DNA from: a virus
IMG/VR virus record: IMGVR_UViG_3300046703_000026
Span: 1-40,485 of that record
Direction: 5' to 3' (one strand)
DNA length: 40,485 bases
The notes under the pieces were generated by a model that was not told the origin of the DNA, searched no databases, and was given only the letters and a program-made list of their open reading frames with translations. The translations under genes and the position numbers were made by a program. Each line of letters begins with the position of its first letter. Positions within the stretch are counted from its first letter, which is position 1. This document shows, piece after piece, positions 4,996 to 36,507 of this stretch.

Positions 4996-4996
4996 A

Positions 4997-5191
4997 TTAG
5001 AACCATCCTAGTAAATTCATGGGGGCTAAGACTTCATCCACACCAGCGCCGCTGGCGAAGACAATCTTGAGATTAGCAAAGGAAATTCCTTTGGAGACAG
5101 GTGTCGTACCCACGTCTATAACGACATAAGCCAAGTCCTCGTCCTCGACTGTGGTAACAACATCCAGTTCAGAAAGCATCTCGTCTGTCAT
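4997..5191 (-). CDS. Short fibre-linker type protein
   Basis: 64 residues. The order L-S-E-L-D, an acidic D-E-D-L-A-Y-V-V stretch, then T-P-V-S-K-G-I-S-F-A-N-L is a motif often found at the N-terminus of phage tail fibres, where it precedes the shaft. Here it makes up the whole protein and ends in a hydrophobic PMNLLGWF. It may be a small attachment piece or a fibre head domain expressed separately. An AGGAG eight bases ahead of the ATG supports the start. No truncation or frameshift into a neighbour is visible. Confidence 0.5.
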   Translation of the reverse strand: MTDEMLSELDVVTTVEDEDLAYVVIDVGTTPVSKGISFANLKIVFASGAGVDEVLAPMNLLGWF

Positions 5192-5201
5192 AGAAATTCT
5201 C

Positions 5202-18762: not shown

Positions 18763-19187
18763 TATGAGCCCTCGTTATCCCTGATGTACTGTAGGTTTAT
18801 CTGTACGATATGCCATGCGTTTGAACCCTCAAGCATGGTTGTGAGTGGTGTCGGTTCCAAAGAGCCAGTGAAGAAGCAATCAAACTTACTGCCATAGTGG
18901 TCAGTAAGAGTAATCACGTCAGAGGGAACTGCGTTAGGATTTGTCAATCTCCAGAGTGTCCTTAGGTCTGTCATGTCTCCATAGTCGTTACCCTGGTCGT
19001 CCTCAGGAACACGCAGGACGTACATGAATGCCCTGAGGATTGGGCCAGAGGCTTTGTCTGGAGTGCCATCTACGGCGAACCTGAGACTATCTGTACGTGG
19101 TTCGGGAACCTTCAGGTCAATCGCCTTGAACCACTTTATCAGAGAACCGTTGCTATTCTCAAGGACGATATACTTATTTGTAGCCAT
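18762..19187 (-). CDS. Distal tail (Dit-like) or small tail protein
   Basis: 141 residues. The sequence opens with strands (NKYIVLENSNGSLIKWFKAI) and contains T-L-W-R-L-T-N-P-N and a closing A-W-H-I-V-Q-I-N-L-Q-Y-I. It lies between the tape measure and the hub, where a distal tail protein is normally encoded, but is shorter than classic Dit proteins, so it may be a tail-tip adaptor. AGGAGG eight bases before the ATG and TAATG coupling on both sides support the call as a real gene. Confidence 0.55.
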   Translation of the reverse strand: MATNKYIVLENSNGSLIKWFKAIDLKVPEPRTDSLRFAVDGTPDKASGPILRAFMYVLRVPEDDQGNDYGDMTDLRTLWRLTNPNAVPSDVITLTDHYGSKFDCFFTGSLEPTPLTTMLEGSNAWHIVQINLQYIRDNEGS

Positions 19188-22100: not shown

Positions 22101-25100
22101 CCACCAATCGCTGGAGCGTACTTGGATAGCATAGAGTCTTTACCACCAAGGCTACCAATCCAGGCTGCATACCCAAAGCCACCAAGACCAGCTACGGCTG
22201 TATTGTAAACATCCGATAGCCCAGGTGTGGTTTGAGCAAATGTCTGAAGACCTGGAAGTCCCTGAACTTCACTGCCATACAGAGCCTTTAGGTTCTGTAT
22301 ACGTTGTGCCTGATTGTATGGCATGTATGGTGTGCCAGACATCTGTCCTGCTGCCCCGCCAAAGACGCCCTCTAGCTGAGCAGCCTCAGCGCCACTATAG
22401 GTCATGCCTCCAGTGGCTAAACCGAACATACGACCAGCGAACATCATACCCCATCCACCAAGAGCCTTGCGAGCCATGCCCCCAAAGCCAGCCAGTCCCC
22501 TTGGTTGTGCTTCTCCTGGTAGTACACCAGCCAATTCTTCATTTCTAGCAGCTTCAAATTTTGCTAGGTCTTCCGCTTGCTTGATGCCACGAGGAACAAT
22601 ACCAGCTATCCTCTCTAGCTGTCCTGTGGCATTTCGCTGAAGAAGACCAGCTTCCTCAAGAGGCCCACCCACCTTCTCGGTCTTTATCTGCGCCGATATC
22701 TGAGAGCCTTCTTTGACAAGTCGAGTCTCCTCGTTCTTGGCAGTGTTGTAATCTATGGAGCCCTTCCTTAGGGCTTCCATATTGTCGTATAACTTCTGAG
22801 ATATTGTTGAAAGTTTCTCGAAGTGAGCAGCGAGAACTGACCCCATAGGAGCGCCAGCGGTATCTTTGGTCTTCGTGACCTCGAAGGCTTTGGATGCAGT
22901 GATTAGAGGTACTCCAGCCTGACCCTCTTGTGTTGATGTGTCACGCACCTGACGTGCCAAATCTATAACTTGGCTTCGCTGTGCCGCTGGTAATTTGTCG
23001 AAGGCTATTTGACTTTCGTTCTTGATGACCTGTCCAGCAAGTCTGTACATCTCGTGCAACTGCTGTCCTGGCTTCTGGAAACCACCAAATTTCTTGGTTA
23101 TATCCTCGGAGCTCATATTAGCCAATGCCGCAGATGCTTCAGCTACAGTGGTAACTGAGGTTCCAGTAACAGCGCCTAGCTTTGCAAATAGAGCCTGATT
23201 AGCTGCATAAACTCCCCTATTCAGGTCTGGAGCGCCAGAACTCGTCTGTGGGAAGAATTGGTTGTACTGCTGTAAGAACCTGTTAGCTTGAGCGGTTGGG
23301 TCAACCTGTCCAGGCTTGGGAGCCAAAGGAACTCCACCACTTGGAGCAACAGGAGCACCAGTTGTGCCACCAGGGGCTACAGGGGTTCCAGCCGTAGGAG
23401 CGCCACTTCCAGTGGGAGGAGCGTATCTTCCAACCTGATTGACAAAATTGCTATTGTCAAGTCGTTTGTTTATCAGTTGCTCCATACGTGCCTTGCCAAG
23501 AAGAGTCGGAGCCTGACGTTGTTCTCCAGCCAGACGAGCTAACTCTTCTGCATCTTTTTGAGTATAGCCACCAAGAACTGGAGTGGTGGGTATGGCAGTG
23601 GGAACAGTGGTAGCGGCTGGAGGGGTAGCGGCGGGAGGTTGCACTGGAATAGTGGCCTGTTGACTCAGAGGCGTCTGAGCTTGAGTAGTACCACTAGTAG
23701 TACCAGTTGCTCCAGGCATAGGTGGCATAAATGGCATTCCTGCAAATGCAGAGCCCATACCAGACTGGATGACAGAGGGGCCTGTAGCCTGTGTCTGTGT
23801 CAAGTCCTGGTAAGCGCCTACACCAATCGAGCGTAGGGCTTTGTAGGCAGCACCCGCAGTATCCATCATCGCTCTCACATGAGAGAGAGGTTGTCCTGCC
23901 GCCTGTAATTGCTTCTGACGTTGTTCCCAATAAGCTGGAGCGGCTGCGGCGATGTCCCACATCTTGGCAAGCGACCTTGGTCTGGCAGCCAGCACATCTC
24001 TTGAGCCAGCGGCTATCTGCTGTGTAAGCTCATCGTGCTGTGTAGGGTTAGAGACATACGAAGTGGTAATCCCTGCGCCCCAATATCCAGGCTGATGTTG
24101 CTCTTCAATCATACCCTGAATAGCTCCGACATCGGCGTTAGCGCCCTTCTCGATTTCAGTAGCCAATGGACTACCAGCCTGAACGAATGTCGGACGAGAA
24201 CCAAAGCGACCAGCCAATAAGTTCTCTTGTGCTTCTTTATATTCAGCCTCGGTCTCAAAGCGTGAGCGCAGTGGTTGGAGTATCCGCTCAGCGGCAGCTT
24301 CACCTTCTTTACCACCCCTGGCAACATCCTTCAGGTTTTCTTCAATTGTCCAGGGAGTAACACGTGACTGTAGCTTGGCTGCTGGTAGACGCTCTTTGAT
24401 GATTTGCTCTCGTGTAATACCAGCGCTTACGTGCTTGAGTTCCTCGAATTGCATGAAGGACTCTTGCCCAGGTCTACGTACATTGTGTACAAAGTCTTCG
24501 GTTGCAGACACAATGGTTTCATGCTGCTGACCAGAGAGTTTACCTCTCCATGTGAACGGAGAAGACCAGGGGAACGCAGGATTGCTGGCTTCCACACTTT
24601 CGAGTCTACCAGTGTCTTCGTTATAGCGCATGGGATTGACACTCTTCCATCCAGCCTTTTCTCCCATGATAGCTCCAAGTCGAGCCTCCATGATAGTGCC
24701 AGCTTCTAGGTACTTATTCCCCTCAGATGGGAAAAGCATATTGGACAGCTTGAATGGATTTTGATATCCAAGGAACTTTCCAACAGAATAAACATTGGAT
24801 GCAAGTAGGGACTGTTCACGATACTCTTGGCGAGGCCTCTTACCCAATGTGGTGTTAGTCTCGTATTTGGGGCCGACTCCAGCCAGGGCTGGAACTTCGT
24901 GACCACGTATCTCTACAGGCATATCTGCTACCTGTTCGTACATCGTGCCGAGCTCAGAGGTCAGCCCCATCTTACCAAAGCCCAATAGGTTCTGGATGTT
25001 ACCCAATCCCCATGCAAGAGTATTATTGACACCCCTACCAAGGTTCTGAGCTCCACGCATGAACTTCATAGCTGTATCAGCAGGGAATAATTTACCCTTC

Positions 25101-28100
25101 ATCATATTGAAGAGTGGTTGCTGAAGAGCGGCATTCTGCATGAGTAATTGCCCTTCTTCAGTCTGAGCAAATGCATCTGGAGGTTGCCACCCAGGTTCAT
25201 TGAGAGCCTTCGATGCTACAGCCTTGCCGAACATAGCTCCGAGGATAGGCATATTGAACATCTTGAGGCGGTTTTCGTCCTGAGCGTAATTGGCCCTGAA
25301 CCAATCCATACCAGCATCACGCATCGCCTGAGCCTTCTCGACTATCGTTCCCTTGCCCTGATAAGGGCCAGTGAGTGCCTCTTGTAGACTTGTCTGCTCA
25401 TAGTACTGGCGCTCCATCTCCAAATTCGGAGTACCAGCGTTCCTGGCAGCCTGTATGTCTCTCCACATATTCACATCGAGTGGATTACGCCCTGATGCTG
25501 GAACAAACGCTCGTGAGCCTTCAGGAGAGAAGTCGCTTGCCAGAAGTTCTGGAGTTGGTAAGAACTGCTTGCCCAATAAGTTGCTTGGCTGGATGGCAGA
25601 GTAGAGCATGTTCTGAGTAGTCTGCATGATACTCGCCTTGTCCAGGCGGTTATTCTGAGCAGCCTTACTCGTCCAGTTTATATCGTTCTTGTCATTCGTC
25701 AAACCCCATCCCATGCCAAGGGTTCCAACGCCACCGCTAGTACCTGTTGACAAGAAAGACTTTTGGTACATCTCCACCAGTGGTGTTGGGTTCTTGGCTA
25801 AGATATCCAAGAATGGCTGGTATAGCTGAGCACGAGTGCGGCGAGCTTGCATGATTTGTTCAGTCGTCCATCCACTGACGGATTGCTGAGCTTCTCTTGC
25901 CCTAGTGTAGTTATAAGTACTACCCATCATGGTCTTTGAGCCCGACCATGTTTGTAGGCTTTCCTTGAGCATCTGGTATGGATATAGGCCAGCTTTGTCG
26001 TACTGTGTACCCATCAGCTTAGCTATGGCAGCCATGCCACCAGAGCCAGTCTTTAGAATGTTCTGATAGAGCGGGTCAAATTGCTCACTCATGCCAGAGG
26101 GAAATAGTCCCTCAAGTATCTTGCGATAAGGGACACCAGCGACCTCTCGAAGACCAGTCTCAACGCTTGGTCTGAGCTCGCCCTTTCTGGTGAATGCCCC
26201 AAACTGTACGGACAAATTTCCACTCTTCCCACGGCGAGCACTTGTGATGCCCATCGCAGCCCACAACTGGTCTAAGTCAAAGTCGCCACCAAGAATGGAG
26301 GATAGTCCAGCCCCAATACGAAAGACGGAGTTGGACATACCACTTGCAATAGGCACTGCCGAGCCCCTACGTTCTAGCTGTTGACTTGTGACAAGGTTGC
26401 CAAAGAACGCAGAGCCCTTACCTTCTAGCAGAGGCCATCTACCGCCAGAGATAGGAAGCCCCATCTCTTTGACGTATTGCTTCACTGCTGAGGGCATCCG
26501 TATCTTGGAGTTCTTACCCTGGATAGCGTTCCACATCTGGTTTACGTCTTCTTCAGTTGGTTCAACACCAATGCCAGTAAGACCATGACGAATAGATGCT
26601 CTGGCGAGCTCTTCAGGAACATAGACCTCGTTCTGTTTCAAGCCCTGCCAGTATGAATAACGAGCGTTTGTGATAGGCACATCGCTTCCGAACAGTGCTT
26701 TATTGCCTTCGGTCTTCACGCCCTCGGAGAGTCCAAACCTCTTAGCGAGGTAGTTATATATCTTATTCCCACCAGACATGACAGCATCGGGGTCATGGTA
26801 AGTAGAACCCTCAATGCCCTGGCGAATAGCACCCTGAGCCATGTTCCATAATCGGGTCTTATCTTCTCCAGTGACACTCTCTTCTGCCTGAGTACGAATG
26901 GCATGAGTGGATGGTAGGTAGTACCCTGGCGCTGTCTCAAAAGCAAGAGGTCTGGTCTTCAGGGTATCAGGTTCTACATTCGGGAAGTATTCCTGAAGTT
27001 TAGACTCGAAGGCTGTCAATCCCGCAAGGGTCGAACCACTCCTACCAAGGGATGACATCAAGCCCACGTCCGATGACATCTTGCTCGCCATCTGCTCAGT
27101 GATGGTTGTAGACTCTGGTATTTCAAAGCCTGAGGTTCCTCTTGCCCTATCTACCATGGATAGAGCGGTCAATTGAGCCGCTCCCCATCGTGCAGGGTTC
27201 CTCATCTCGTGTATCTTCTGAGCCTCAAGCCCACGTGACAAATTACCAGCAGCTTCAGTATCAAGAGTGGACAGTCCAAGAGCAGCAGCGTAGTCAGGAG
27301 CCTTGGCTGTAAGTAGTCCAGCGATTTCAGCATTAGCTCTACCACCACCGCTCCACTCTAGGCCAGCACTGGATATACCTGTAACCGCAAAGCCAGGGAT
27401 ACCATGCGTCCTCATCCTCTGACCATTCTCGGCTTGCGCTGCAAAGCCAAATTGTTTCTGAAATGCAGCTTCAGACTCAGCAGCACCCATGTTGGGATTG
27501 GCAAGCTGATAGGGAGATAGAAGGGTCTGATACTCTTGCTCTTCATACATCCTGGATACCTGGGTGGTCATGTCCGAACCCACAAAGCCTGTGCCATATC
27601 TCCTCAGATTTGTAAGGTTCTGAGGAGACTGAGCCATGGTGTTGAGTTCAGTCTCAGACATCTGAGAAAGTTGCTGAGTAGTTCTACCACCAAGAAAGAT
27701 GCGCTGTAGGATATCTCTACCAACCTCATGCGCTGGTAGTCCCATAAGTTCACTCATGCGGTCAATATCAAGACGAGCCGCAGGGTTCTGAGCCCTGGCT
27801 GTTCTGGTCTCTCCAAGCACTGTAGTAACACCCTCGTACTGTTGTGCAAGAGCCTGAGCCTCTGCACCAGTCTTCTGAAGCTCAGATAATCTGAGGTCTT
27901 CAGCGTACTGAGAGAGTAGTCTCTCTTGTCGAGTGGCATTCAATCCACCGAGGGAAGTAATCATCTTCTCTGGTAATGACTTTATTTCAATGGACGTTGT
28001 AGTGATGGGAATAGGCGACTTTGTGCCAACGTTGATTACTGGTCTGCCAGCTTCTTCGGTAAGACCAATCTTCTCGCCTTCTCCAGCCCACTTAGCGTTT

Positions 28101-29692
28101 ACGTCAACGAATGAGTTAGGAAACTCCAGGTAAGCCTTATTGACTGTCTCGTTGGTAGTAACACCAAACCCAAGCCTCGCCTGAAGTGCGGCTATCTCTT
28201 TGTTGGTAACTTCTCTGAGCTCACCAGCAGCAAGACGGTCAGGGTCATAGGACTCGCCATAGCCTGAGTACGCATTACGATACTTAGGGATGACTAGCTG
28301 GTGTTGACCAAGGATAAGGTTTTGAGCTCCCATGCGTTCCTCAAGAGGAACTTCTGGAAGGTTCTCAAGTTGACCTTTCTGGTTTACTATCCTGCCCATG
28401 GAGACATTCGCATAAGTCCACTTATTGCTTGATGGAACAATCTCTCCAGCGTGGTGTGGGACATTGATATTGATATCACCCTGGATTAGCCCCTCAATGT
28501 TTTCTGCAACAACGTAGCTTGGGGTCTTACGAAAACCCATTGCGCCAATCTTTATCCCCATATTCTCTGGATAAAGTGTACCGCCTCCAGGTTGTAGGGC
28601 TTCCTGTGGGGTATAGAGATTAGTCGTGACAAATCCAGCCTCAGGGATACGACCACCTACCTGTGCTGTAGTAAGGCGATAGCCAGCACCAAAGCCCCTT
28701 TGCGGAATGGGGGTTGGAGCTATTGGCTGTCGATTGAAGTCCAGGGGTTCGGCTGTATCTCTGCCCTCAATAAGGTTCAAGTGCTTTGACATCGAAGACG
28801 TAGGCAGATATCCGAGGTTGCCCCTGGCTGCATAGTGGAAGTACTCACGTAAACGGCGGGTCTCTCCACCACTCATACCTCTGTCCTGAGCGTAACCATA
28901 TTCTCTCAGGGCTGAGCCAAAGGTGGATGTATAGTTGGGTTGACCAGGAGGAGCCTGTACGTAGATGGGAGCATTGGTCTCTATCGTATGATAGGTATAC
29001 TCATTCATACGGCGAGCCTGTTCCATCTGAGCAACACCAGCGGCCTTCTCATCTGCAAAGACGTTGGATAGCTGAAGAGTCTTAGCAGCATTCTGGACAA
29101 GCGATGGAGCGGAGCGTTTATTGATGAGCATCGTTCCAGCGGCTACCGAGATGTCTGCATTCTCGTCAGCACCTTCAGCAGCGATGTTGTACAAATGACT
29201 CTGCACGTCAGCATTAGTGTTGCCCTGAGCTCTTTCAGTACGGACTGTCTCGAATGACGTGGAGAGTGCCGCAGCAAAACTAGCTGTCGGGCCTCGTAGT
29301 ACCTGTTGGATAGTAAATGGGTCTTTAGCGGTTCTGGCACGATTGCCCTGCTGAGCACCTAGCTGATAACTTCTTTCAAGTGTGCCAGCGAACACATAGC
29401 CATAATCGCCTCTACGTGTCATCAACTGCGGAGCCCACTCATTCACAGGGGCAGCATTTTGATTGCCATAGTTGGTGGTAAAGTTCGATTGTGCAGGAAG
29501 ATTTATATTGAGATTGGTGGATACGGTCTCGTTGCCACGAGTATGCGAGATGTGAAAGAAACTCGCTTCTGGTAACACCTGACCACGTGGGGTCTTGCGC
29601 TCGATGTACGAAACTGCGTACTCTGGCCCCAAAATGGACTCAAGATATTTCCCAAAGTCCTGCATGTTTGGCTTATTGAAATTGGCTGGCAT
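19187..29692 (-). CDS. Tape measure protein
   Basis: 3501 residues. Tape measures set tail length and are ejected with DNA; by the usual 0.15 nm per residue this predicts a tail of about 525 nm. Residues ~2000-2140 contain Pro/Thr/Gly-rich linkers. Hydrophobic stretches follow near 2420-2440 (L-G-G-W-G-M-M-F-A-G-R-M-F-G) and 2500-2550. From ~3140 the protein is Gln/Trp-rich, then a long charged coiled coil (LRDLQREYQREQWELQKQMV). Residues 3399-3420 hold a C2H2-finger-like L-N-A-H-I-Q-Q-V-H helix but only one Cys. The end has the tape-measure motif V-G-E-H-G-K-P-E-W-F-V-P. GGGAG precedes the start. Three palindrome copies lie within it. Confidence 0.9.
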   Translation of the reverse strand: MPANFNKPNMQDFGKYLESILGPEYAVSYIERKTPRGQVLPEASFFHISHTRGNETVSTNLNINLPAQSNFTTNYGNQNAAPVNEWAPQLMTRRGDYGYVFAGTLERSYQLGAQQGNRARTAKDPFTIQQVLRGPTASFAAALSTSFETVRTERAQGNTNADVQSHLYNIAAEGADENADISVAAGTMLINKRSAPSLVQNAAKTLQLSNVFADEKAAGVAQMEQARRMNEYTYHTIETNAPIYVQAPPGQPNYTSTFGSALREYGYAQDRGMSGGETRRLREYFHYAARGNLGYLPTSSMSKHLNLIEGRDTAEPLDFNRQPIAPTPIPQRGFGAGYRLTTAQVGGRIPEAGFVTTNLYTPQEALQPGGGTLYPENMGIKIGAMGFRKTPSYVVAENIEGLIQGDININVPHHAGEIVPSSNKWTYANVSMGRIVNQKGQLENLPEVPLEERMGAQNLILGQHQLVIPKYRNAYSGYGESYDPDRLAAGELREVTNKEIAALQARLGFGVTTNETVNKAYLEFPNSFVDVNAKWAGEGEKIGLTEEAGRPVINVGTKSPIPITTTSIEIKSLPEKMITSLGGLNATRQERLLSQYAEDLRLSELQKTGAEAQALAQQYEGVTTVLGETRTARAQNPAARLDIDRMSELMGLPAHEVGRDILQRIFLGGRTTQQLSQMSETELNTMAQSPQNLTNLRRYGTGFVGSDMTTQVSRMYEEQEYQTLLSPYQLANPNMGAAESEAAFQKQFGFAAQAENGQRMRTHGIPGFAVTGISSAGLEWSGGGRANAEIAGLLTAKAPDYAAALGLSTLDTEAAGNLSRGLEAQKIHEMRNPARWGAAQLTALSMVDRARGTSGFEIPESTTITEQMASKMSSDVGLMSSLGRSGSTLAGLTAFESKLQEYFPNVEPDTLKTRPLAFETAPGYYLPSTHAIRTQAEESVTGEDKTRLWNMAQGAIRQGIEGSTYHDPDAVMSGGNKIYNYLAKRFGLSEGVKTEGNKALFGSDVPITNARYSYWQGLKQNEVYVPEELARASIRHGLTGIGVEPTEEDVNQMWNAIQGKNSKIRMPSAVKQYVKEMGLPISGGRWPLLEGKGSAFFGNLVTSQQLERRGSAVPIASGMSNSVFRIGAGLSSILGGDFDLDQLWAAMGITSARRGKSGNLSVQFGAFTRKGELRPSVETGLREVAGVPYRKILEGLFPSGMSEQFDPLYQNILKTGSGGMAAIAKLMGTQYDKAGLYPYQMLKESLQTWSGSKTMMGSTYNYTRAREAQQSVSGWTTEQIMQARRTRAQLYQPFLDILAKNPTPLVEMYQKSFLSTGTSGGVGTLGMGWGLTNDKNDINWTSKAAQNNRLDKASIMQTTQNMLYSAIQPSNLLGKQFLPTPELLASDFSPEGSRAFVPASGRNPLDVNMWRDIQAARNAGTPNLEMERQYYEQTSLQEALTGPYQGKGTIVEKAQAMRDAGMDWFRANYAQDENRLKMFNMPILGAMFGKAVASKALNEPGWQPPDAFAQTEEGQLLMQNAALQQPLFNMMKGKLFPADTAMKFMRGAQNLGRGVNNTLAWGLGNIQNLLGFGKMGLTSELGTMYEQVADMPVEIRGHEVPALAGVGPKYETNTTLGKRPRQEYREQSLLASNVYSVGKFLGYQNPFKLSNMLFPSEGNKYLEAGTIMEARLGAIMGEKAGWKSVNPMRYNEDTGRLESVEASNPAFPWSSPFTWRGKLSGQQHETIVSATEDFVHNVRRPGQESFMQFEELKHVSAGITREQIIKERLPAAKLQSRVTPWTIEENLKDVARGGKEGEAAAERILQPLRSRFETEAEYKEAQENLLAGRFGSRPTFVQAGSPLATEIEKGANADVGAIQGMIEEQHQPGYWGAGITTSYVSNPTQHDELTQQIAAGSRDVLAARPRSLAKMWDIAAAAPAYWEQRQKQLQAAGQPLSHVRAMMDTAGAAYKALRSIGVGAYQDLTQTQATGPSVIQSGMGSAFAGMPFMPPMPGATGTTSGTTQAQTPLSQQATIPVQPPAATPPAATTVPTAIPTTPVLGGYTQKDAEELARLAGEQRQAPTLLGKARMEQLINKRLDNSNFVNQVGRYAPPTGSGAPTAGTPVAPGGTTGAPVAPSGGVPLAPKPGQVDPTAQANRFLQQYNQFFPQTSSGAPDLNRGVYAANQALFAKLGAVTGTSVTTVAEASAALANMSSEDITKKFGGFQKPGQQLHEMYRLAGQVIKNESQIAFDKLPAAQRSQVIDLARQVRDTSTQEGQAGVPLITASKAFEVTKTKDTAGAPMGSVLAAHFEKLSTISQKLYDNMEALRKGSIDYNTAKNEETRLVKEGSQISAQIKTEKVGGPLEEAGLLQRNATGQLERIAGIVPRGIKQAEDLAKFEAARNEELAGVLPGEAQPRGLAGFGGMARKALGGWGMMFAGRMFGLATGGMTYSGAEAAQLEGVFGGAAGQMSGTPYMPYNQAQRIQNLKALYGSEVQGLPGLQTFAQTTPGLSDVYNTAVAGLGGFGYAAWIGSLGGKDSMLSKYAPAIGGVLAAASLIGTGAQKAQNPEPVGQRMAYASRIGSTPGEAIGQIFSLTDTIAQILNPSGTKEATQGYQEVGFLMGRGATPASMVSQLGTMHGGKLTAEEANKANIRAMRLILQENPELSPEAVAKAYSFGASTGIAQDQYSKVAAYMQQTGMSPEVMSNIMTLTGRGYGAQYGGGQLGQAFLQSMGTMTPTMSKYLEAGQGVLQQMGTAATYATQGMDWTQLQNYTSTLGQYAGTPQAGVFTNQMQQWQQQKQFGWNVQQPNAAMLTHTPTQEELGIEAIRSQKAENVSQLVNQIGAIQSNYLGRTDTEAWTTQQGLSGKSVGELQKMLDEMSDLAKSVAMQRSLVPGKTEQYYQDYRAQMESMVPSERIIQQGSQDQLLAAREMLMQQGVPYSVAQPQMEYLQANRTPQQITRFAKETQWGAAAAEQMAMGWSLREPQKADVLSMLNWQAEVASGMPEARVTPMGTPYNDYYKNMIQGIAQFEPYALTQGVANGLNIPGTETQIPGFMASRDIWGPNAPMGMAGMPLNAPAFTVSGASHPLFGMLQQNLGSSMNWKGGVGQAFSQGYQVPGTNFAMAGLQGAQNYLMVQQAENQAAYAGNSAAQLALAMKYTPQMWGIQDQTTNLGYEQQRWGFQRQEQGLQMQQQQAQQNWGMQQTQMNMQRGWTRQDWVTQDQQRNQQWGWQVEDFQENVRFMTGRDRRLAERQMSRATITHDQEGDQIDKNRKRQEEMWALEDERFDLQKQQFMENQKFQEEGIAKQKEFFEQRVVLETQLRDLQREYQREQWELQKQMVGIQAKQAQDAADYATLQAGISATMLEQQTMTEDIQKNGVDFVTLWDTKLKEWVALLGGTPQSGGNPPSGNDPNVTCPIASDWTGPASQLNAHIQQVHMSATGSPIGAGEPQVVGEHGKPEWFVPNVNGKITPYKPWDSTSMKSTVASDRREREPALIIVNIGNEELKRYVVKAVEEEL
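23663..23680. repeat. Dispersed palindrome, exact core
   Basis: ACTCAGAGGCGTCTGAGC, inside the tape measure; G replaces the pyrimidine after CTCAGA. Codons for A-Q-T-P-L-S. Confidence 0.55.
27652..27667. repeat. Palindrome variant, spacer of two
   Basis: TCTCAGACATCTGAGA in the tape measure gene, with two bases between CTCAGA and TCTGAG. Confidence 0.35.
27880..27896. repeat. Palindrome variant, spacer of three
   Basis: GCTCAGATAATCTGAGG in the tape measure gene. Confidence 0.35.
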
Positions 29693-29698
29693 AACTCC

Positions 29699-29965
29699 CT
29701 ACTTCCCTGCTAGAGCAATTTGTGTCTTTTCTACAGTAGCCCATTCTTCAAGGAACTGTTTTATTACACCATGCTCTTGCACCCACCAAAATGGTTGGTC
29801 TAGCAAACCGCCAGCGACATAAGGAAGACCTAAATCCCTGGCTTGTTCATAACGAGTAAGGGCTTCAGGCTTCTCTAGTCTCTCTTCAGGTGGTATCTTG
29901 CCACCCGCTCGAATTTCATTACCTTGTCCGAAGTAGTCCCACAGATACGTTTTGAGAGCATTCAT
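29699..29965 (-). CDS. Tail assembly chaperone, frameshift extension (T part)
   Basis: 88 residues from its first ATG, but probably read mainly as the C-terminal part of a -1 frameshift product from the upstream gene. The ATG has no Shine-Dalgarno within the normal distance, and the frame is open upstream through the shift site. The protein (ALTRYEQARDLGLPYVAGGL, then D-Q-P-F-W-W-V-Q-E-H) resembles the second part of G/GT-type chaperones, small helical proteins between tail tube and tape measure genes. The stop lies seven bases before the tape measure start. Confidence 0.65.
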   Translation of the reverse strand: MNALKTYLWDYFGQGNEIRAGGKIPPEERLEKPEALTRYEQARDLGLPYVAGGLLDQPFWWVQEHGVIKQFLEEWATVEKTQIALAGK

Positions 29966-29979
29966 CTGTTGGGATAAAA

Positions 29980-29989
29980 CTATTCCCCC
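29980..29989 (-). other. Likely programmed -1 frameshift site
   Basis: In the minus-strand RNA the first chaperone frame ends GAC TTG GGG GAA TAG. The run of five G lets the GGG tRNA re-pair one base back, after which the reading frame continues GGA ATA GTT TTA TCC CAA CAG ATG into the 88-residue frame with no stop. The fused protein would be about 249 residues. The frame offset (-1) is the one used in lambda-type G/GT chaperones. The slippery run is not a canonical heptamer, and I have not found the downstream stimulatory structure. Confidence 0.6.
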
Positions 29990-30447
29990 AAGTCGGTGTC
30001 GCCCACGCCTCCCATAATCCAGTGCGGGTTCATCTCTTGGACTTTTGAATGAATTTCGGCGGCTGTCTCATCGTCAAGTGTGCCAAAGGCATCGTTGAAC
30101 TGGTCAGTTCTCATGTCCAGAAACGGCCCATTAGCATCACTCTTGAAGCGAAACAGAGGTTCTTTGCCATCAGCCTTGGTGATATTGCATCCTACCAGTG
30201 TCAACTCGACTTCCTTGGAGATAAGGTCATACAAAGGAAGACGGAAGATGACACGCTCTTTCCCGCCGTTATTGTCGGCAAGCTCACGAATGTACTCCGC
30301 AAACAGCTTACTACGCAGGGAGTTCTGCCGTACTGTTGCCAGACGGATAGTGACAATGGTCTTTTCATCGGTTGGAATACCTTGGCGCTCGTCTAGCTTC
30401 TCAAGTTGAAACTCTTTTGTCTCAGGTGGTGATACACGTGCTGGCAT
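29980..30447 (-). CDS. Tail assembly chaperone (G part)
   Basis: 155 residues, first of the two chaperone frames between the cargo cassette and the tape measure, the classic place for G/GT proteins that hold the tape measure during tail assembly. Residues about 35-110 are mixed alpha/beta (RLATVRQNSLRSKLFAEYIR, VIFRLPLYDLISKEVELTLV), and the end is acidic (MGGVGDTDLGE), where the shift site lies. The start has AGGAG six bases away. It is close to phage tail proteins but the family assignment rests mostly on position and the frameshift. Confidence 0.65.
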   Translation of the reverse strand: MPARVSPPETKEFQLEKLDERQGIPTDEKTIVTIRLATVRQNSLRSKLFAEYIRELADNNGGKERVIFRLPLYDLISKEVELTLVGCNITKADGKEPLFRFKSDANGPFLDMRTDQFNDAFGTLDDETAAEIHSKVQEMNPHWIMGGVGDTDLGE

Positions 30448-30456
30448 GTTAGTCTC

Positions 30457-31095
30457 CTAATGTACTCGTTTGAGATACCCCGAAGGGTTCCATGTGATTA
30501 GATATTGCTCGCATTCTCGGTCAACCTCAAATGCGTGGTTCTCTTTCAAGAAGGTCTGTATAGCTGGATAGGGGCCGCTGTAGTTCCTTGGTAGTCCATG
30601 ATTGGCGATACTGTCTTCCACGATGTAATAACCACCCTTCTTTATAAGGGGTGAGTATAATCGTAGACAAGCAAGTGTATGCTTTTCGTCATGGCTGGAG
30701 TCCTCGATGACTATGACCTTCTCAGGAAATTTTATTTGCTCAAGTATTTGAGGTAAGACATCCAGGGCTGCCCCTGTAAGGAACATACAACGTGGATGCT
30801 GTCTCGCTAATGGGTATATTTTATCACAGATATCAACACTGATGATACGCCCCTTGCCTATTCTGTCAAGCCAGTGTGCCATCATTAGAGCACTGCCACC
30901 AAACTTACTGCCAATCTCTATGATGACATCTGGCTTATAGTTGAACAGGAGTTGCTGATATACCCATGCATCCAGAGGAAATTTGTAGGTTGGGATGCCG
31001 AAGTATGTCGCTTTCTTCAGAATACCATCTTGAATGTGTCGAAACACAGTTTCAAGGTCTACTCTTTTCTCAACAGCCTGTTCGTGAGTAATCAT
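30457..31095 (-). CDS. CmcI/rhamnosyl O-methyltransferase-family SAM enzyme
   Basis: 212 residues. The N-terminal part carries the cephalosporin hydroxylase (CmcI) signature: K-F-P-L-D-A-W-V-Y-Q-Q-L-L-F, K-P-D-V-I-I-E-I-G-S-K-F-G-G-S-A, then R-I-I-S-V-D-I and V-I-E-D-S-S-H-D. The E-I-G-S-x-x-G-G loop binds SAM in this Rossmann family, whose members include the methyltransferase of cephamycin synthesis and rhamnosyl O-methyltransferases. Here sugar O-methylation is more likely than antibiotic synthesis. The ATG overlaps the stop of the previous gene by four bases (ATGA); a longer in-frame extension to 31143 exists but has no support. Confidence 0.7.
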   Translation of the reverse strand: MITHEQAVEKRVDLETVFRHIQDGILKKATYFGIPTYKFPLDAWVYQQLLFNYKPDVIIEIGSKFGGSALMMAHWLDRIGKGRIISVDICDKIYPLARQHPRCMFLTGAALDVLPQILEQIKFPEKVIVIEDSSHDEKHTLACLRLYSPLIKKGGYYIVEDSIANHGLPRNYSGPYPAIQTFLKENHAFEVDRECEQYLITWNPSGYLKRVH

Positions 31096-31709
31096 TTTCG
31101 TGTAGCGCTCCAGATGCGACCATAGGTGTGATAGTCCTTCCATAGACCAGAAGGTATCACAATTTCGTCAATGACCTTGGTGACACCCACTTGGCGTGTA
31201 TGGTAGTCATGGAAGGCGATATGTCCACCAGAGGGAATGAACCCAAACCAAGCAGTGTAGTCTGCAAGTACATTTGCAAACTTGTGGCTTGCGTCAATGA
31301 AGAGCAGGTCAATGGGTTTGGTGCGCCGAGATGCAGCCTTTAGGCTGCTAATCATCTTTGGGATAACAAAATCACTCAGACCCATCTGAGCCACTTGGTC
31401 TTGGAATATCTGCCAAGTTTCCTCACTGGAGTAGTGAGCGAAGGTCTTGCCAACACCCTTTGTCCAAAGGTCAATGGCATAGATTTTGGCTGTGTTATTG
31501 CCAGCCTCTTTAGCAGCAGAGGCCATAACACAAATCGACTTGCCACGGTGGGAGCCAATCTCAACAATACATCCACCCATGGGGATATTCAAGCCAAGCC
31601 ACGAAAGATGCTTGACCTCAATATCGTTGATGCCTGTGGTGCTACCCTTGTCGCCAGACAAGAGTGCATTCAGTTCATCATGTTTGTTCAAAATAGAAAG
31701 CTGTTCCAT
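31092..31709 (-). CDS. Class I SAM-dependent methyltransferase (MTase_24-like)
   Basis: 205 residues. The SAM-binding loop is G-C-I-V-E-I-G-S-H-R-G-K-S-I-C-V (about 49-64), the acidic motif A-I-D-L-W follows near 81, and I-D-L-L-F-I-D-A-S-H and G-G-H-I-A-F-H-D-Y-H complete the core typical of small-molecule or sugar methyltransferases. Its start is inside the end of the glycerophosphotransferase-like gene (32-base overlap) with AAGGAG upstream, and its end overlaps the CmcI-like gene, so the three form one tightly coupled cassette. An exact dispersed palindrome (31374-31391) lies in codons for A-Q-M-G-L-S. Confidence 0.75.
   Translation of the reverse strand: MEQLSILNKHDELNALLSGDKGSTTGINDIEVKHLSWLGLNIPMGGCIVEIGSHRGKSICVMASAAKEAGNNTAKIYAIDLWTKGVGKTFAHYSSEETWQIFQDQVAQMGLSDFVIPKMISSLKAASRRTKPIDLLFIDASHKFANVLADYTAWFGFIPSGGHIAFHDYHTRQVGVTKVIDEIVIPSGLWKDYHTYGRIWSATRK
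31374..31391. repeat. Dispersed palindrome, exact core
   Basis: ACTCAGACCCATCTGAGC inside the MTase_24-like gene, codons for A-Q-M-G-L-S. Confidence 0.6.
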
Positions 31710-32766
31710 CTCGTTTACTCCTTATGTATTCTGTTATTGCCCTAGCAGCCCTCTTCGCAGATTTGCCCATGTAGGGATACAACTCATCAATCATCTTGAG
31801 TCTTTGTGGATAAAATTCTTCTGGATGAGCTATGGTTCTACGAACTGCTGTTAGTAGCTGGCTAGGTTTGTTCACACAAATTCCTATGTCTGTGTAATCC
31901 CAAAACCTTATTCCCCAATGTACATCTCTACGGAACCAAGGTGCGTTCAATATTATAACAGGTTTACCAGTACAGGAAAACTCGTACATCGTTGACGATG
32001 CATCGTTGATATAGATATCGCAACGCTTCATAATCTTACTGAAGTCGGGCTCGATGTCAGTAATACCACAGTTGTTATAAAGCGGAATTAGCTTATTGAT
32101 GATTTTGGGGTGTCCGTGTCCTACAATATGAAATTTCTGTGCAAGTTCTGGAAGTATCTCCAGGTAGAAGTCAAAGGCGTTTCCAGCCTCAGGACAAACG
32201 GCTTTACCGTCCCAATGAAAGGATATCCCAATTGTAGGATTTTCTTTCTTGGTTGGCATCTCTAGTGAGATGGTATCCATCTTTGGAGTACCTATAATAA
32301 CCTGTGGCGCTGTCGGGAAAGTCTTAGCTGTCTTATCGTATATATTCTGATTTGGAGGAAGGAACAATGATACTTTACTACGCAAGCCCTCTCCACCACC
32401 ATAGCCTGGATGTACTTCAAAACTAAGTCCTACCCCATGCTCCATGAGAAAGAATGGTCGCATAGAGAATTGATGCCACGCTTGCTCCATATCCCCATAA
32501 GCACAGGTAACGATTGGCGACATGCCTGGAGGTCGTACTAGGAGTTTGTTCCCTCTTACGCTATGGGAGTGTAGGGTCTCGTACTCAAAGCCCTTGGTTT
32601 TAGCATATTCTTCAATGCATTCAGGAATATAAAACGTACCACGCTCAGATGGTCTGAGCTCGTTCCAAACTGGTAATAAATGGTCTATAAAATGAGTTCT
32701 ACGTGCAAAGAAGTCGGGCTTCATAGCCCAAGACGGTTTGTGTACCGTGGGTGCGTATTCTGCCAT
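31678..32766 (-). CDS. CDP-glycerol glycerophosphotransferase-like (GT-B) enzyme
   Basis: 362 residues. The C-terminal half has the Glyphos_transf/GT-B hallmark: C-D-I-Y-I-N-D-A-S-S-T-M-Y-E-F-S-C-T-G-K-P-V-I-I-L-N, equivalent to the D-Y-S-S-x-x-x-D-F-x-x-x-x-K-P motif of teichoic-acid polymerases, preceded by F-H-I-V-G-H-G-H-P. These enzymes transfer glycerol phosphate or sugars to a growing glycan. Residues 1-180 would be the acceptor half. The gene opens a three-gene cassette after the tail tube gene, with AAGGTGG directly after a strong hairpin. Whether it acts on virion or host glycans is not shown. A variant palindrome lies near its start (32643-32659). Confidence 0.7.
   Translation of the reverse strand: MAEYAPTVHKPSWAMKPDFFARRTHFIDHLLPVWNELRPSERGTFYIPECIEEYAKTKGFEYETLHSHSVRGNKLLVRPPGMSPIVTCAYGDMEQAWHQFSMRPFFLMEHGVGLSFEVHPGYGGGEGLRSKVSLFLPPNQNIYDKTAKTFPTAPQVIIGTPKMDTISLEMPTKKENPTIGISFHWDGKAVCPEAGNAFDFYLEILPELAQKFHIVGHGHPKIINKLIPLYNNCGITDIEPDFSKIMKRCDIYINDASSTMYEFSCTGKPVIILNAPWFRRDVHWGIRFWDYTDIGICVNKPSQLLTAVRRTIAHPEEFYPQRLKMIDELYPYMGKSAKRAARAITEYIRSKRDGTAFYFEQT
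32643..32659. repeat. Palindrome variant, spacer of three
   Basis: GCTCAGATGGTCTGAGC near the start of the glycerophosphotransferase-like gene, in a third codon phase (E-L-R-P-S-E-R). Confidence 0.4.
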
Positions 32767-32777
32767 GTCTCCACCTT

Positions 32778-32808
32778 GGTAGCCCTCAGAGGAGGGCTGA
32801 GGGCTACC
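32778..32808 (-). terminator. Perfect 12-bp hairpin between tail tube and glycan cassette
   Basis: GGTAGCCCTCAG (32778-32789) and CTGAGGGCTACC (32797-32808) are perfect inverted arms around a seven-base loop. In the minus-strand RNA the stem ends directly against the Shine-Dalgarno of the glycerophosphotransferase-like gene and is not followed by a U tract. It could attenuate transcription into the cassette, hold back its translation, or protect the upstream tail tube message from 3' exonucleases. Confidence 0.6.
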
Positions 32809-32827
32809 TATTCAATTGTGGTGAAGG

Positions 32828-33910
32828 TTATGAGCCAGCGGAAGGCCAGACGTAACTGGCGGTCTCATTCTTCAGGATAAAGGTTGCGTAATCACCAGCA
32901 GTGGGTTCGAGAGCCGTACCAGTGAACCGAGCGATGATAGCCTGTCCACCAGCAAGCTGGATGGGGCCATTCATCTGCCACATGATGTTCTGTGCGGCGA
33001 TGTTCAACTGGAACTTCTGCGTTCCTGAGCCAGCGATACCAGTACCAAGCATCGCAACGTCCATGGAGCCTGTCATCGGGTTTGAAGACCAAGTTGTGCC
33101 GACATTACTGCCAGTCAAGATGGCCTTGTACAGTCCAGGGTTGTTCCATTTGATTGTGCAATCAAATGTAATCTGGCGCTGGAGGATAGTGATATCTTCC
33201 AGAGCAGGAGACCCATAGACCTTCTCCTGACGGATGTCAAGGTTCTGGTTTGCGAAGGTGACACGAGCACCAACAACAGGGAGTTCCTCTCCAGTCAAGC
33301 CACCACCAGTGAACTTGATAAAGCCACCGAGCTCACAACCAACGGGGATTGAGTCCCAGTTTTCGTAAGCGGCGTTTTGCCAAGACCAGCCAGCGATGCT
33401 GTCTGCGAGTGCGAACTCACGTCCCATGAAGTCCCACCGAGCAGTGATGGGCGAGTCGTTGGGCAGGGTGAGAGCGAGGGCAATCGGTTTTACATCGGTA
33501 TAAAGCTCACCGATATCCGTGTTGGGGTCACTCTCTTTCATGGGGATATATTTCCGCAGGGAAAGCCAGCGCACGAAGCTCTGGTCAGACGCAAGCGGTT
33601 TGAAGGTGTGTGTATACACACCACTGGCGGGCGCTCCAGTAGAGCAATCTCCGAGGGTTGCGTAAAGCAACCATCCGAGAGAGTTCTCCAGACGAGGCAT
33701 GAGTTCCACGCCTCCACCCACGACATATCCTGCCTTATAGGGGAAGGTAGGGAACGGGCCTGAGCCGATTTCCATCGGGCCTACCCGAATATCATCATTC
33801 ACGCCGAGGTCGATGAGCGTAGCCTTGTGCTTCCAGAAGAGAGTCGCAGCCTCTTCCATCGCACCCTGAGGGCCAAACCCAAAGACACCAGCTTGAGCAG
33901 TTACAGCCAT
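32828..33910 (-). CDS. Major tail tube protein
   Basis: 360 residues. The pattern G-S-G-P-F-P-T-F-P-Y-K-A-G-Y-V-V-G-G-G-V, then L-G-W-L-L-Y-A-T-L-G and late F-Q-L-N-I-A-A-Q-N-I matches phage tail tube proteins of the siphovirus type, with an Ig-like C-terminal part. It follows the head completion genes and precedes the chaperone and tape measure, as expected. The large size suggests an extra surface domain, a possible target of the neighbouring glycan cassette. GAGG lies seven bases before the ATG. Confidence 0.8.
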   Translation of the reverse strand: MAVTAQAGVFGFGPQGAMEEAATLFWKHKATLIDLGVNDDIRVGPMEIGSGPFPTFPYKAGYVVGGGVELMPRLENSLGWLLYATLGDCSTGAPASGVYTHTFKPLASDQSFVRWLSLRKYIPMKESDPNTDIGELYTDVKPIALALTLPNDSPITARWDFMGREFALADSIAGWSWQNAAYENWDSIPVGCELGGFIKFTGGGLTGEELPVVGARVTFANQNLDIRQEKVYGSPALEDITILQRQITFDCTIKWNNPGLYKAILTGSNVGTTWSSNPMTGSMDVAMLGTGIAGSGTQKFQLNIAAQNIMWQMNGPIQLAGGQAIIARFTGTALEPTAGDYATFILKNETASYVWPSAGS

Positions 33911-33933: not shown

Positions 33934-34491
33934 TTAGTCCCATGACCTTTCTGTCAGGCACTCCCATATCAACTTACCTCGCCAGAGATAAGAAGTGGGT
34001 GGCCCTCCAGACTGGTACATGGAGTTTTGGGTATGGAACAGCTTGACAGCGTGTTCCCCGAAGTCATCAGTAAGTCCTGACATGTTGAAGAGCTCGATGT
34101 TGCTTTGTATCCGTCCGAGGACGGTATAAGCCCTATCACGAGCTACTTCTTCTTCCAGGTTCTCAATGATAAAGAACAGTTCCAACCTGACAACACCTCT
34201 TCGATACCACATCTGCGAGCCCCCTATTTCACGAGGGGCAAGTGAGAAAGCGAGCTTGGTGTCGTTGTTGGTAGGGTTGCTCACAATCGAGTCCATCAAG
34301 TTAGGGTCTTCCAAATCACCACCCTGTACAGACGCACGAAGCGCAGTAGTGTTAGGGTCTTCTTGGAAACGACCATACTTGACTACGGTAAGCCTTGTGG
34401 GGTCTCCGTAGGGTATCTCAGCGATGCAGATACGATTTAGTTCATCTACAATCCGCTGACATATCATGGGTACGATGTGATTGTTAGCCAT
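33934..34491 (-). CDS. Tail terminator/neck protein
   Basis: 185 residues. A start helix (IVPMICQRIVDELNRICIAE) followed by strands (TRLTVVKYGRFQEDPNTTAL, VVRLELFFIIENLEEEV) and a long helix is the layout of tail terminator or head-tail joining proteins that cap the tail tube. It lies between the connector and the tail tube, in the expected order. GAGG precedes the ATG, and the start overlaps the connector gene by eight bases. The family is inferred mainly from position. Confidence 0.6.
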   Translation of the reverse strand: MANNHIVPMICQRIVDELNRICIAEIPYGDPTRLTVVKYGRFQEDPNTTALRASVQGGDLEDPNLMDSIVSNPTNNDTKLAFSLAPREIGGSQMWYRRGVVRLELFFIIENLEEEVARDRAYTVLGRIQSNIELFNMSGLTDDFGEHAVKLFHTQNSMYQSGGPPTSYLWRGKLIWECLTERSWD

Positions 34492-35119
34492 GAACGCCTC
34501 TTATCCTGGCTGGCATACGTTCCATCTCGATGCGGAAGCGTTCTAGGTAGTATGTGGACATGTCTCTCATTGGGTTCATTATTGGTGTGCCACTATCTAC
34601 CTGTACATTCCACTGTCGGATGTTAGCTGCCGATGACGATTTCTCAAGTAGAGCATAAGACGCTGCGTAGAACACGATTGCTCGTGTACACCATGCAGGG
34701 GACTCTAATTCGTCCTCGTCATCCACAGGAACCGCCCACGTTGCGCCATACAGGAGAGTTACATTTCCGACTGGCGCATTGGCGAGACTGAGACTTCCCT
34801 CAGGATACTCCATCCAGTCCTGGTTCGAGTTTAGGTCAGAGCCAGGACTATCACCAGCGCTCAGAGTGTTCTGTTTCAAATAGCGACCAGAGTCAGTATC
34901 CAAGACCGCCGTTATACGGTAGAGGTCTGCGGGTAACTCGAACTCTGTGATGTTACTATCTGCCTCAAGAACTACCTCTGAGCGCTTGAATACCCAAGGG
35001 AGTATGGCTTCCAAAGCAGCAACTATTCCGTCATTGACAAGTGAAACACCGTACTGCTGTGCAGAAGGGTCTGCCAGCACACGGTACACTTTAGCTCTGA
35101 CTTCGGAGAAAGTTGCCAT
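34484..35119 (-). CDS. Head-tail connector (adaptor) protein
   Basis: 211 residues, mainly helical at the N-terminus (FSEVRAKVYRVLADPSAQQY, IVAALEAILPWVFKRSEVVL) then a beta region with I-T-E-F-E-L-P-A-D-L-Y-R-I-T-A-V, a pattern seen in adaptor proteins of the gp6/gp15 type that bind below the portal. The late helices (A-S-Y-A-L-L-E-K-S-S, R-D-M-S-T-Y-Y-L-E-R-F-R) fit the ring. Position directly after the major capsid gene agrees. AGGAG lies eight bases before the ATG. Confidence 0.65.
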   Translation of the reverse strand: MATFSEVRAKVYRVLADPSAQQYGVSLVNDGIVAALEAILPWVFKRSEVVLEADSNITEFELPADLYRITAVLDTDSGRYLKQNTLSAGDSPGSDLNSNQDWMEYPEGSLSLANAPVGNVTLLYGATWAVPVDDEDELESPAWCTRAIVFYAASYALLEKSSSAANIRQWNVQVDSGTPIMNPMRDMSTYYLERFRIEMERMPARIRGVHG

Positions 35120-35130
35120 CAGAAACGCTC

Positions 35131-36507
35131 CTAGCTACCCAACCGCCCTTTTAGACGGACGGAACCAGCCGAGAAGACGACCTCGAAGACCTCTGGAGCG
35201 TAAGGCTGATGCCCCATGCGGTCATTCCAGGAGAAGCGGTAAATGCTCTCCAGGTCATCAATCGGGGGAGGAGTGTGCAGACGGATTGGGGCTGCAACAC
35301 CCGTTACGACACCCTGAGGCCCACCAACGAAGATTGACGCATGGACATTGAAGCCCTTGGTCACGTAACCGTAGTTAGCGCCTTCGATGATGGTTGCGAG
35401 GTCAGCCATGATTGGCTTGTCCAGGCAGATGCGGTCATTACCAGTGTCGATGGACACTACACGCCGATACTGGTTGGAACCATCAAATGGGTCAACTGAG
35501 CCAGTCGCACCATAGGAACTGGTCTTGCTGGTGTGAATGGTGATGATGTCGTTCACCTGAAGATTGCTCTCCAGTGTGCCTGTGTCTGGACTGGTGTCCA
35601 GTTGCAGATAGTGGACGATACCACCAGAAGTCTGACCGACTTTGTACGTTCCATCAACCTTGGTTGAGGCAGGGTTCGGAGCGCCATCGCCAGCATGTGC
35701 CGCAGCAGTGATGCCAGCCTGGAACTCTACAGTTCCAGCATTCCACAAGACGAGGCGTGGGGACTCCACGAAGCGCACGTTCTTGTAGGTTCCAACTTCG
35801 TACTTGAACAGAGAGCCTGGGGAGGCATATTTCGCCACTTCCACCCAATCGGGGTCTTTCTGTAAGTCGAAGATTACTCCAGGCGTGGTGTAGCAGATCA
35901 CTGCACCAGCGGAGCCATCGGGGTTCAAAGCGCCGTTCACTTCACGGTACTTCATACCAAGCTGGATGGTCGGGGGGATTGAGATGTCCATGACATCCGT
36001 AGATATCATGTCACCAAAATCGGTTGCGGAGCCAGCGTAGTACACGTACCCTGTGTGGGCGAGAGCACCTTCAATCAGGGCGTTACGTGCTAAGTAGTCA
36101 TGCACGTCAACGATGTTTGCACCCAAGACCTGATTGAGGATGGCACGTAAACCTTGGGTTCCGTTTGCCTTCCAGTAGGTCACTAGGTCATCGTACTCAT
36201 GCATGGCAACTTTCCCGCCATGATGTTGGAAAGTGATTTCGATTGCCCGACTGTCAATATGCATGGCAGGGAGCCACAGTTGACGAGTCGCAATCGCATT
36301 GTAGTTAGCATGAGGTTCCAGCACTTGCGTGACTGTCATGCTAGTCGCACGAACATCTGCGAGGTTTCGGGCATACGTCACAATGTCCGAGAACAAAGAA
36401 CGTGTGCGGAAGAGGGCCAACACGTCAGGGTCGTACCAGACACGTTGGTTCTTATCCAGAACCTCGACAGGATTGTCGGCATAATAATCAGTGATAGGGT
36501 CAGCCAT
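35131..36507 (-). CDS. Major capsid protein (N4-gp56-like HK97 fold)
   Basis: 458 residues. The motif K-Y-E-V-G-T-Y-K-N-V-R-F-V-E-S-P-R-L-V-L (about 230-250) is the signature of N4-gp56-family major capsid proteins, HK97-fold shells. Upstream it has the E-loop region (F-G-D-M-I-S-T-D-V) and an N-terminal helix R-T-R-S-L-F-S-D-I-V-T-Y. An inserted acidic/Gly domain lies around 290-350. It follows the scaffold-like gene and precedes the connectors. AGAGG precedes the ATG. The only GATC I found in the window is inside this gene (35896-35899). Confidence 0.85.
   Translation of the reverse strand: MADPITDYYADNPVEVLDKNQRVWYDPDVLALFRTRSLFSDIVTYARNLADVRATSMTVTQVLEPHANYNAIATRQLWLPAMHIDSRAIEITFQHHGGKVAMHEYDDLVTYWKANGTQGLRAILNQVLGANIVDVHDYLARNALIEGALAHTGYVYYAGSATDFGDMISTDVMDISIPPTIQLGMKYREVNGALNPDGSAGAVICYTTPGVIFDLQKDPDWVEVAKYASPGSLFKYEVGTYKNVRFVESPRLVLWNAGTVEFQAGITAAAHAGDGAPNPASTKVDGTYKVGQTSGGIVHYLQLDTSPDTGTLESNLQVNDIITIHTSKTSSYGATGSVDPFDGSNQYRRVVSIDTGNDRICLDKPIMADLATIIEGANYGYVTKGFNVHASIFVGGPQGVVTGVAAPIRLHTPPPIDDLESIYRFSWNDRMGHQPYAPEVFEVVFSAGSVRLKGRLGS
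35896..35899. other. Only GATC site found in the window
   Basis: In a by-eye pass over all lines and line joins this was the only GATC. At equal base frequencies about 158 would be expected. It lies in the major capsid gene. Confidence 0.6.

Follow-up and report, generated by a model that had tools for sequence, protein, structure and literature searches.

What are three glycan-enzyme genes doing in the middle of a phage tail operon? In the window, by which we mean the whole 40,485-nt stretch of DNA that was analysed (virus record IMGVR_UViG_3300046703_000026, positions 1 to 40,485), a sequence-only reading had placed a glycerophosphotransferase-like GT-B enzyme, an MTase_24-like methyltransferase and a CmcI/rhamnosyl-O-methyltransferase-family enzyme between a tail tube gene and a tail chaperone gene, and had proposed that they add and cap a glycan on the virion or else alter host wall polymers. 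We found that these genes form a cassette at a site that is empty or differently filled in related phages, and that relatives of the first enzyme recur in structural operons of another phage lineage. The cassette probably builds and O-methylates a glycan on virion proteins of this siphophage, to judge from its anatomy and kinship.

The open reading frames (ORFs) and their Pfam matches bear out three enzyme genes at this place, all on the minus strand like the neighbouring morphogenesis genes. The upstream border of the site is the tail tube gene (32828-33910, 360 amino acids), which matches phrog_290 (1.3e-10) and, slightly below the cut-off, Phage_tube_2 (5.7e-6). After an intergenic stretch with a strong hairpin (32767-32827) come the gene of a 362-residue glycosyl/glycerophosphate-transferase-like enzyme of GT-B fold, hereafter called the glycosyltransferase (GT; 31678-32766), that of a 205-residue S-adenosylmethionine (SAM)-dependent methyltransferase of the Methyltransf_24 family (31092-31709) and that of a CmcI/rhamnosyl O-methyltransferase family enzyme (30457-31095, 212 residues from its preferred start). 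The downstream border is a 155-residue gene (29980-30447) with no PHROG match and only a sub-threshold Pfam match, which we call the chaperone-position gene on account of its place and of its homologues in relatives; of the two flanks that had been named, the tube thus has family support and the chaperone is assigned by position.

The overlapping gene ends were read correctly. The GT start follows AAGGTGGAG; the Methyltransf_24 gene shares 32 bp with the GT gene, and its ATG is preceded, at about 8 nt, by the ribosome site AAGGAG; the CmcI start at 31095 shares ATGA with the TGA of the preceding gene; and the CmcI stop codon overlaps with the ribosome site that serves the chaperone-position gene. 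The listed CmcI ORF begins at an upstream ATG at 31143 (30457-31143, 228 residues), but the gene most likely starts at 31095, because of the ATGA overlap and the fit to a 55% identical protein of another virus (our locus L004; L numbers are our handles for loci and their records). Chance can be excluded as the origin of the cassette, given its long ORFs, the strong family matches, GT homologues in viral contigs at 37-66% identity and a nonsynonymous divergence (dN) of 0.27 between the GT genes of the window and of L015, quoted by itself since synonymous divergence (dS) is saturated; between these two sequences, the GT appears to be under purifying selection.

What kind of enzyme is the GT? It matches PF04464 (Glyphos_transf) just above the cut-off (E 4.1e-5; 23.1 against 22.1 bits) and only over the C-terminal part of the profile (positions 223-365 of 367), and a profile search finds the TagF-like Cps3D (6e-5) and TarL (0.017). 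Its AlphaFold model (pLDDT 87.4, pTM 0.86) has the two Rossmann-like domains of a GT-B fold, and Foldseek lists UDP-N-acetylglucosamine (UDP-GlcNAc) 2-epimerases first (3.5e-12 to WecB), then TagF (1.2e-9) and SdgB among others. Although epimerases are its best fold matches, we rejected that identity, as the PF02350 score is 11.5 bits against a cut-off of 30.6. Because of the fold matches, the weak PF04464/TagF-like kinship and the failure of the epimerase model, we call the protein a GT-B transferase and assign it no donor: the predicted fold is firm and agrees with the enzyme fold first proposed, while kinship to glycerophosphotransferases is remote. An alignment of 13 family members shows invariant E109-H110-G111, H217, H219-P220, D255, S258 and T259. 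A viral-structure library search returned low-identity GT-B matches from many viruses and added nothing. Since most deep forks of the GT tree are unresolved, we claim no order of transfers.

Both methyltransferase assignments stand. The 205-residue protein matches PF13578 (Methyltransf_24) over positions 1-105 of 105 (E 1.8e-20; 74.2 against 26.3 bits), with D139, H142, H167 and D168 invariant in a six-row alignment. The CmcI protein matches PF04989 (RMNT_CmcI) over positions 4-206 of 206 (E 8e-39; 133.9 against 23.2 bits), and an alignment with PDB entry 8ia9 sets its D132, E160 and D161, conserved in L004, against the DDGSH and ED motifs that hold the acidic metal-site residues of the family; we take these three residues to be metal-binding. 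A tblastn search with the CmcI protein against the annotated phage collection gave no match. None of the three cassette proteins has a transmembrane-like segment (maximum 19-residue Kyte-Doolittle means 0.66, 1.09 and 1.18), and by hydropathy none is a transmembrane flippase or transferase of the membrane-bound serotype-conversion type.

A survey of the site in relatives, which had been suggested as a check, showed that its content varies within one phage lineage. We found 8 tube loci and 11 capsid loci; sequence reaching past the tube gene is available for the window's own virus, L015, L016, L034 (the same as L057), L035, L036 and L060. L037, L038, L056, L058 and L059 end before the site and are outside this census, the site of L061 was left out, and L002, L003, L007, L013, L014, L033, L044 and L055 (a near-identical record) as well as L001 (the window's own piece) are not independent of the window. 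We count three distinguishable cases in which the site is filled and three in which it is empty. In L015/L016 (tube 75-76% and capsid 80% identical to those of the window), a GT 63-66% identical to that of the window directly follows the tube gene, and the contigs break off within this GT or shortly past it. In L060 (tube 71%, capsid 76%), a different set of five genes lies between the tube and chaperone-position genes: a Stf0-sulfotransferase-like ORF (weak, 2.6e-4), an ORF that looks methyltransferase-like by eye, a Methyltransf_24 gene (8.8e-18), a 726-residue protein homologous to Rctr41k_21/_22 and a GT 50% identical to that of the window (7.2e-131), which is the last gene of this cassette and the first of the window's. 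PDB searches with two of these L060 proteins gave no match. Tube and chaperone-position genes are separated by only about 58-68 bp in L034 and L036, and by a single 68-residue ORF in L035, confirming that they normally lie next to each other.

The phages with an empty site differ in what they carry elsewhere. Well upstream of its portal gene, the L035 record has a GT (1.5e-114), a GT11 fucosyltransferase-family ORF and a sulfotransferase-like ORF that scores below the cut-off. Upstream of portal in the L036 record are an Stf0 sulfotransferase (1.1e-25) and an ORF that resembles GT34, again with a score below the cut-off. The 82.8 kb L034 record has no match to the GT profile, Methyltransf_24, CmcI or GT11, and its tube (L034:9001-10386) has a Big_5 Ig-like domain fused at the C-terminus (2.5e-10), a single observation. 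From these genomes it looks as if the lineage retains surface-decorating genes while shifting their place. The tube itself gave no match in the PDB, an AlphaFold model from five sequences (pLDDT 28) was not used, and a short C-terminal AGS, which the window and L016 tubes have where those of L035 and L036 end earlier, was too weak to use.

Whatever follows it, the tube gene is followed by a hairpin. The window hairpin has a z score of -5.57, and the stem-loops of the window, L015, L034, L035 and L036 range from -4.4 to -5.7, with 0/200 shuffles equally stable in each of the five; a plain fold places one at the same point in L060. The stem sequences differ among the window, L015/L016, L034, L035 and L036, indicating that the predicted structure is kept across the lineage and the sequence is not. 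The hairpin lacks a T run on its 3' side and so does not qualify as a canonical terminator. In the predicted folds of the window and L015, outer stem pairs cover the GT ribosome-binding (Shine-Dalgarno) site, and the hairpin may in this way keep enzyme expression lower than tube expression.

We then asked where else the GT family occurs. Among 2.9 million viral contigs a scan confirmed 16 loci, that of the window's own virus included, and a second scan, for which each of 84,980 species of bacteria and archaea was represented by a single genome, confirmed 4; further loci are in phage Rctr41k, the L035 record and L060. By our own grouping, which excludes the bacterial loci L029-L032, the GT-bearing viruses form 14 groups, after merging L015 with L016, L008 with L009 and L017 (near-identical by match), L021 with L022 and L024 (L021 was not inspected), L010 with L025, and L011 with L012, L026 and L027. 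The GT adjoins recognised structural genes in 8 of the 14 (window, L015/L016, L060, Rctr41k, L008, L022, L010 and L023). Because capsid, portal or adaptor homologues are common to them, we count Rctr41k, L008, L010, L022 and L023 as one lineage, in which the GT occupies three sites: after the adaptor gene in Rctr41k, after capsid/protease in L010 and L023, and between head morphogenesis and tail genes in L008 and L022. A sulfotransferase-methyltransferase fusion and a Methyltransf_24 gene adjoin the GT of L008.

As raw counts among GT-bearing viruses, 8 of the 14 groups (window, L060, L008, L022, L018, L011, L035 and L028) have other glycan enzymes in the same cassette or no more than about 5 kb away, and four (Rctr41k, L019, L020 and L023) have them farther off in the record; the contigs of the L010 and L015/L016 groups end too early for this count. 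Two sets of 19 records underlie the record-wide family searches: one without L048, L050 and L060, used for the L034 negatives, for thymidylate synthase and for part of the glycan-enzyme searches, and one with these three records but without L006, L015 and L016, used for the searches that include L060.

The CmcI family led to comparable neighbourhoods. An alignment search gave seven loci, among them the window's own (L044) and that of the L004 virus (L045). In L004, which has a phrog_88 major tail protein, the CmcI gene is situated between the chaperone-position gene and the tape measure, the latter with strong tape-measure PHROG matches; an unclassified ORF and one with a Stealth_CR2 match below cut-off follow. 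L048 has GT2, Methyltransf_24, CmcI and GT2 genes ahead of its portal gene, with Methyltransf_24 and CmcI in the same order as in the window, and L050 has GT1/GT9, GT2, GT8, CmcI and methyltransferase genes upstream of its tape measure. CmcI belongs to a large cluster of glycan genes in L046, stands at the end of a contig in L047 and is part of a 355 kb record in L049; in none of these three were structural neighbours recognised by eye.

Several side observations concern these families. The L004 ORF at 8646-9464 was considered as a GT-family member and rejected (hhalign probability 8), as was the L039 ORF at 4884-5672. In Rctr41k (L005, KX853513; 22356-23407), the match to the C-terminal part of the GT continues in another reading frame, annotated as a separate ORF 33, which suggests a frameshift or a sequencing error in the deposited record. 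About 9 kb from this GT, an island (L005:10114-13673) with Methyltransf_24, sulfotransferase-like (below cut-off), HAD-like and GT-like genes, several of them annotated as hypothetical, is partly homologous to the tail-site cassette of L060 (L060:15026-17943). On a Flagellimonas chromosome (L029:9001-18280, not clearly prophage), the GT carries a fused GT2/GT7C-like domain and has a 2428-residue ORF next to it. GT11 fucosyltransferase-family domains are fused to transferase/methyltransferase domains in L039:7028-8602 and L011:5311-7437, found by Pfam scan, and in L043:1051-3441, where the evidence is a search of the whole record for GT11 together with similarity to L060; all three are phage records.

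How could such a cassette work? Anatomy and kinship point to the following course. The three genes, which follow the post-tube hairpin, would share a transcript with the late structural genes; a virion protein would receive from the GT-B enzyme either a sugar or a phospho-polyol-like unit; the two SAM-dependent methyltransferases would then O-methylate hydroxyls of the glycan as a cap; and the resulting coat may change the recognition or stability of the particle. The tail tube is our first candidate acceptor and the capsid the second, the tube being favoured because of the site, of the Ig domain that the L034 tube has instead, and of the published precedent for tube and capsid glycosylation. 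Related phages would swap the content of the site, leave it empty or place the cassette elsewhere.

Between the two options first offered, a glycan on the virion or an altered host wall, the former is the better supported, because of the site in a morphogenesis operon, the lack of transmembrane segments, the recurrence in structural operons of unrelated phages and a precedent known from experiment. Some observations weigh against it, all the same. The structural-operon GT cases come from two phage lineages only; in two of the 14 groups (L011 and L035) the GT lies upstream of terminase- or portal-like genes, an assignment made partly by eye, and in four others (L018, L019, L020 and L028) inspection by eye revealed no structural gene next to it. 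Since L034 has no GT, Methyltransf_24, CmcI or GT11 match, the function of the cassette is, as far as genomes tell, dispensable in the lineage. Finally, in mycobacteriophages such as Boilgate and Patt a Methyltransf_24-like gene stands by itself at the right end of the genome, and the 8 kb viewed there contain no GT annotation.

If the enzymes instead modified, during infection or lysogeny, a teichoic-acid-like or O-antigen-like polymer of the host surface, they could block superinfection or keep progeny from adsorbing to debris. The teichoic-acid and capsule polymerases TarL and Cps3D are nearest to the GT in sequence, and substrates of the CmcI and Methyltransf_24 families include small molecules and cell glycans. 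Serotype conversion, however, typically uses a membrane-bound enzyme set, which the three proteins, free of transmembrane-like segments, do not provide; this, the tail-operon location and the presence of related cassettes among the structural genes of other phages make a host target unlikely. The operon location would suit any virion protein as acceptor, including tail-tip or receptor-binding proteins whose modification would tune adsorption rather than coat tube or head. Nothing direct speaks against such a target, but the precedent in print concerns capsid and tail tube, and we hold it to be quite improbable.

Could the genes be horizontally acquired passengers (morons) that sit harmlessly behind the hairpin with no virion role? 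The G+C contents of the GT (0.432) and CmcI (0.440) genes are lower than those of the tube (0.542) and capsid (0.536) genes, the third-position G+C content of the GT is 0.397 against a mean of 0.488 for other genes, and L034 and L036 have no such genes at the site, all as one would expect of passengers. The conserved catalytic-type residues, the apparent purifying selection on the GT between the window and L015, and the functional partners that recur together in unrelated phages nevertheless render this very unlikely. DNA hypermodification, in which the GT would add a sugar to the bases of phage DNA and the methyltransferases would alter that sugar, has a basis in that phage GTs can glycosylate DNA, according to PMC12619734. 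The genes are in a tail operon, though, and thymidylate synthase (PF00303) has no match in the window record or in the 19 records searched, which are partial, leaving hardly any likelihood for this explanation. We therefore retain a virion glycan as the best account of the cassette.

The rest of the operon fits a morphogenesis module. Upstream of the tube gene, on the same strand, are the capsid gene (35131-36507), an adaptor-like gene of 211 residues (34484-35119) and a 185-residue gene (33934-34491). Downstream of the chaperone-position gene, an 88-residue gene (29699-29965, minus strand) has homologues, 38-55% identical, at the equivalent place in L034, L035, L036 and L060, and precedes a 3501-residue ORF (19187-29692, minus strand) that is a putative tape measure by position, size and relatives, the N-terminal 1000 residues being 26-31% identical to equivalently placed ORFs in L034 and L060. 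Tape measures usually correspond to about 0.15 nm of tail per residue, a rule that would give a tail near 500 nm if it held here. In L040, the record behind L002 and near-identical, an oppositely transcribed block with SSB-like and VWA-like ORFs (by eye) lies past the window end.

A further idea, which we put forward tentatively and regard as possible rather than probable, is that the tube-chaperone gap is the virus's own serotype locus, swapping whole glycan pathways or an Ig-like tube fusion. If this were true, the surface chemistry of the virion would vary independently of the structural genes, like bacterial O-antigen clusters, and transferase, methyl, sulfate and fucose-type decorations would be exchanged among siphophages at this site. 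The phage-associated GT family could serve to flag virion-glycan cassettes in siphophages that have not been cultured, and because close relatives differ at the same site, the function can be tested by a comparison of virion proteins between phages that have a cassette and phages that lack one. The locus bears on surface variation, stability and recognition of phage particles.

How does this cassette compare with known systems? Phage-made virion glycans have so far been documented mainly in mycobacteriophages, whose capsid and tail tube are reported to be glycosylated, which is said to shield the particle from antibodies (PMC12363180 and PMC12619734); the key paper is Freeman et al. 2023 (Cell Host Microbe), as cited in PMC12363180, PMC11600133 and PMC12619734. 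In cluster O mycobacteriophages such as Corndog, an O-methyltransferase and three GT genes lie between the portal and protease genes, according to PMC4351075 and PMC11600133. The window has the same type of arrangement as Corndog, Firecracker and Dylan, with GT and O-methyltransferase genes in a tight operon within the virion structural genes, but the site differs (portal-protease there, tube-chaperone here), and the cluster O GTs belong to other Pfam families (GT25, GT2-like). Firecracker gp33, an O-methyltransferase, is in the same Pfam methyltransferase superfamily (TylF 1.8e-12, Methyltransf_24 1.7e-9) as the window methyltransferase; as a direct homologue of the two window methyltransferases it was rejected (BLASTP E 0.18 and 9.9, not significant).

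The GT shares with TagF, TarL and Cps3D (PF04464) the GT-B fold and a D-x-SS motif ahead of a GKPV-type segment, whereas the phage family aligns with no more than the C-terminal portion of PF04464, at a score close to the cut-off, has no membrane-type segments and has an N-terminal DFFARR..H..DH motif of its own. The CmcI protein is a full-length match to the CmcI/rhamnosyl O-methyltransferases (8e-39), a family of which several phage members differ in being placed in structural operons. In Thermobifida phage P1312, genes 25 and 27 likewise set a Methyltransf_24 O-methyltransferase beside an annotated glycosyl/glycerophosphate transferase downstream of tail genes, but this transferase is 24% identical to the window GT and matches the GT-family profile weakly (2.7e-7). 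Such cassettes had been called little described. This holds for the tube-chaperone site: titles and abstract starts, in the library and with the terms searched, gave no description of a glycan site there, of the window GT family or of sulfotransferase-like partners in virion operons. It does not hold for cassettes of GT and O-methyltransferase genes in virion operons or for glycosylation of capsid and tail tube, which are already known; what the present locus adds to these systems is a new GT family, a new insertion site and evidence of swapping.

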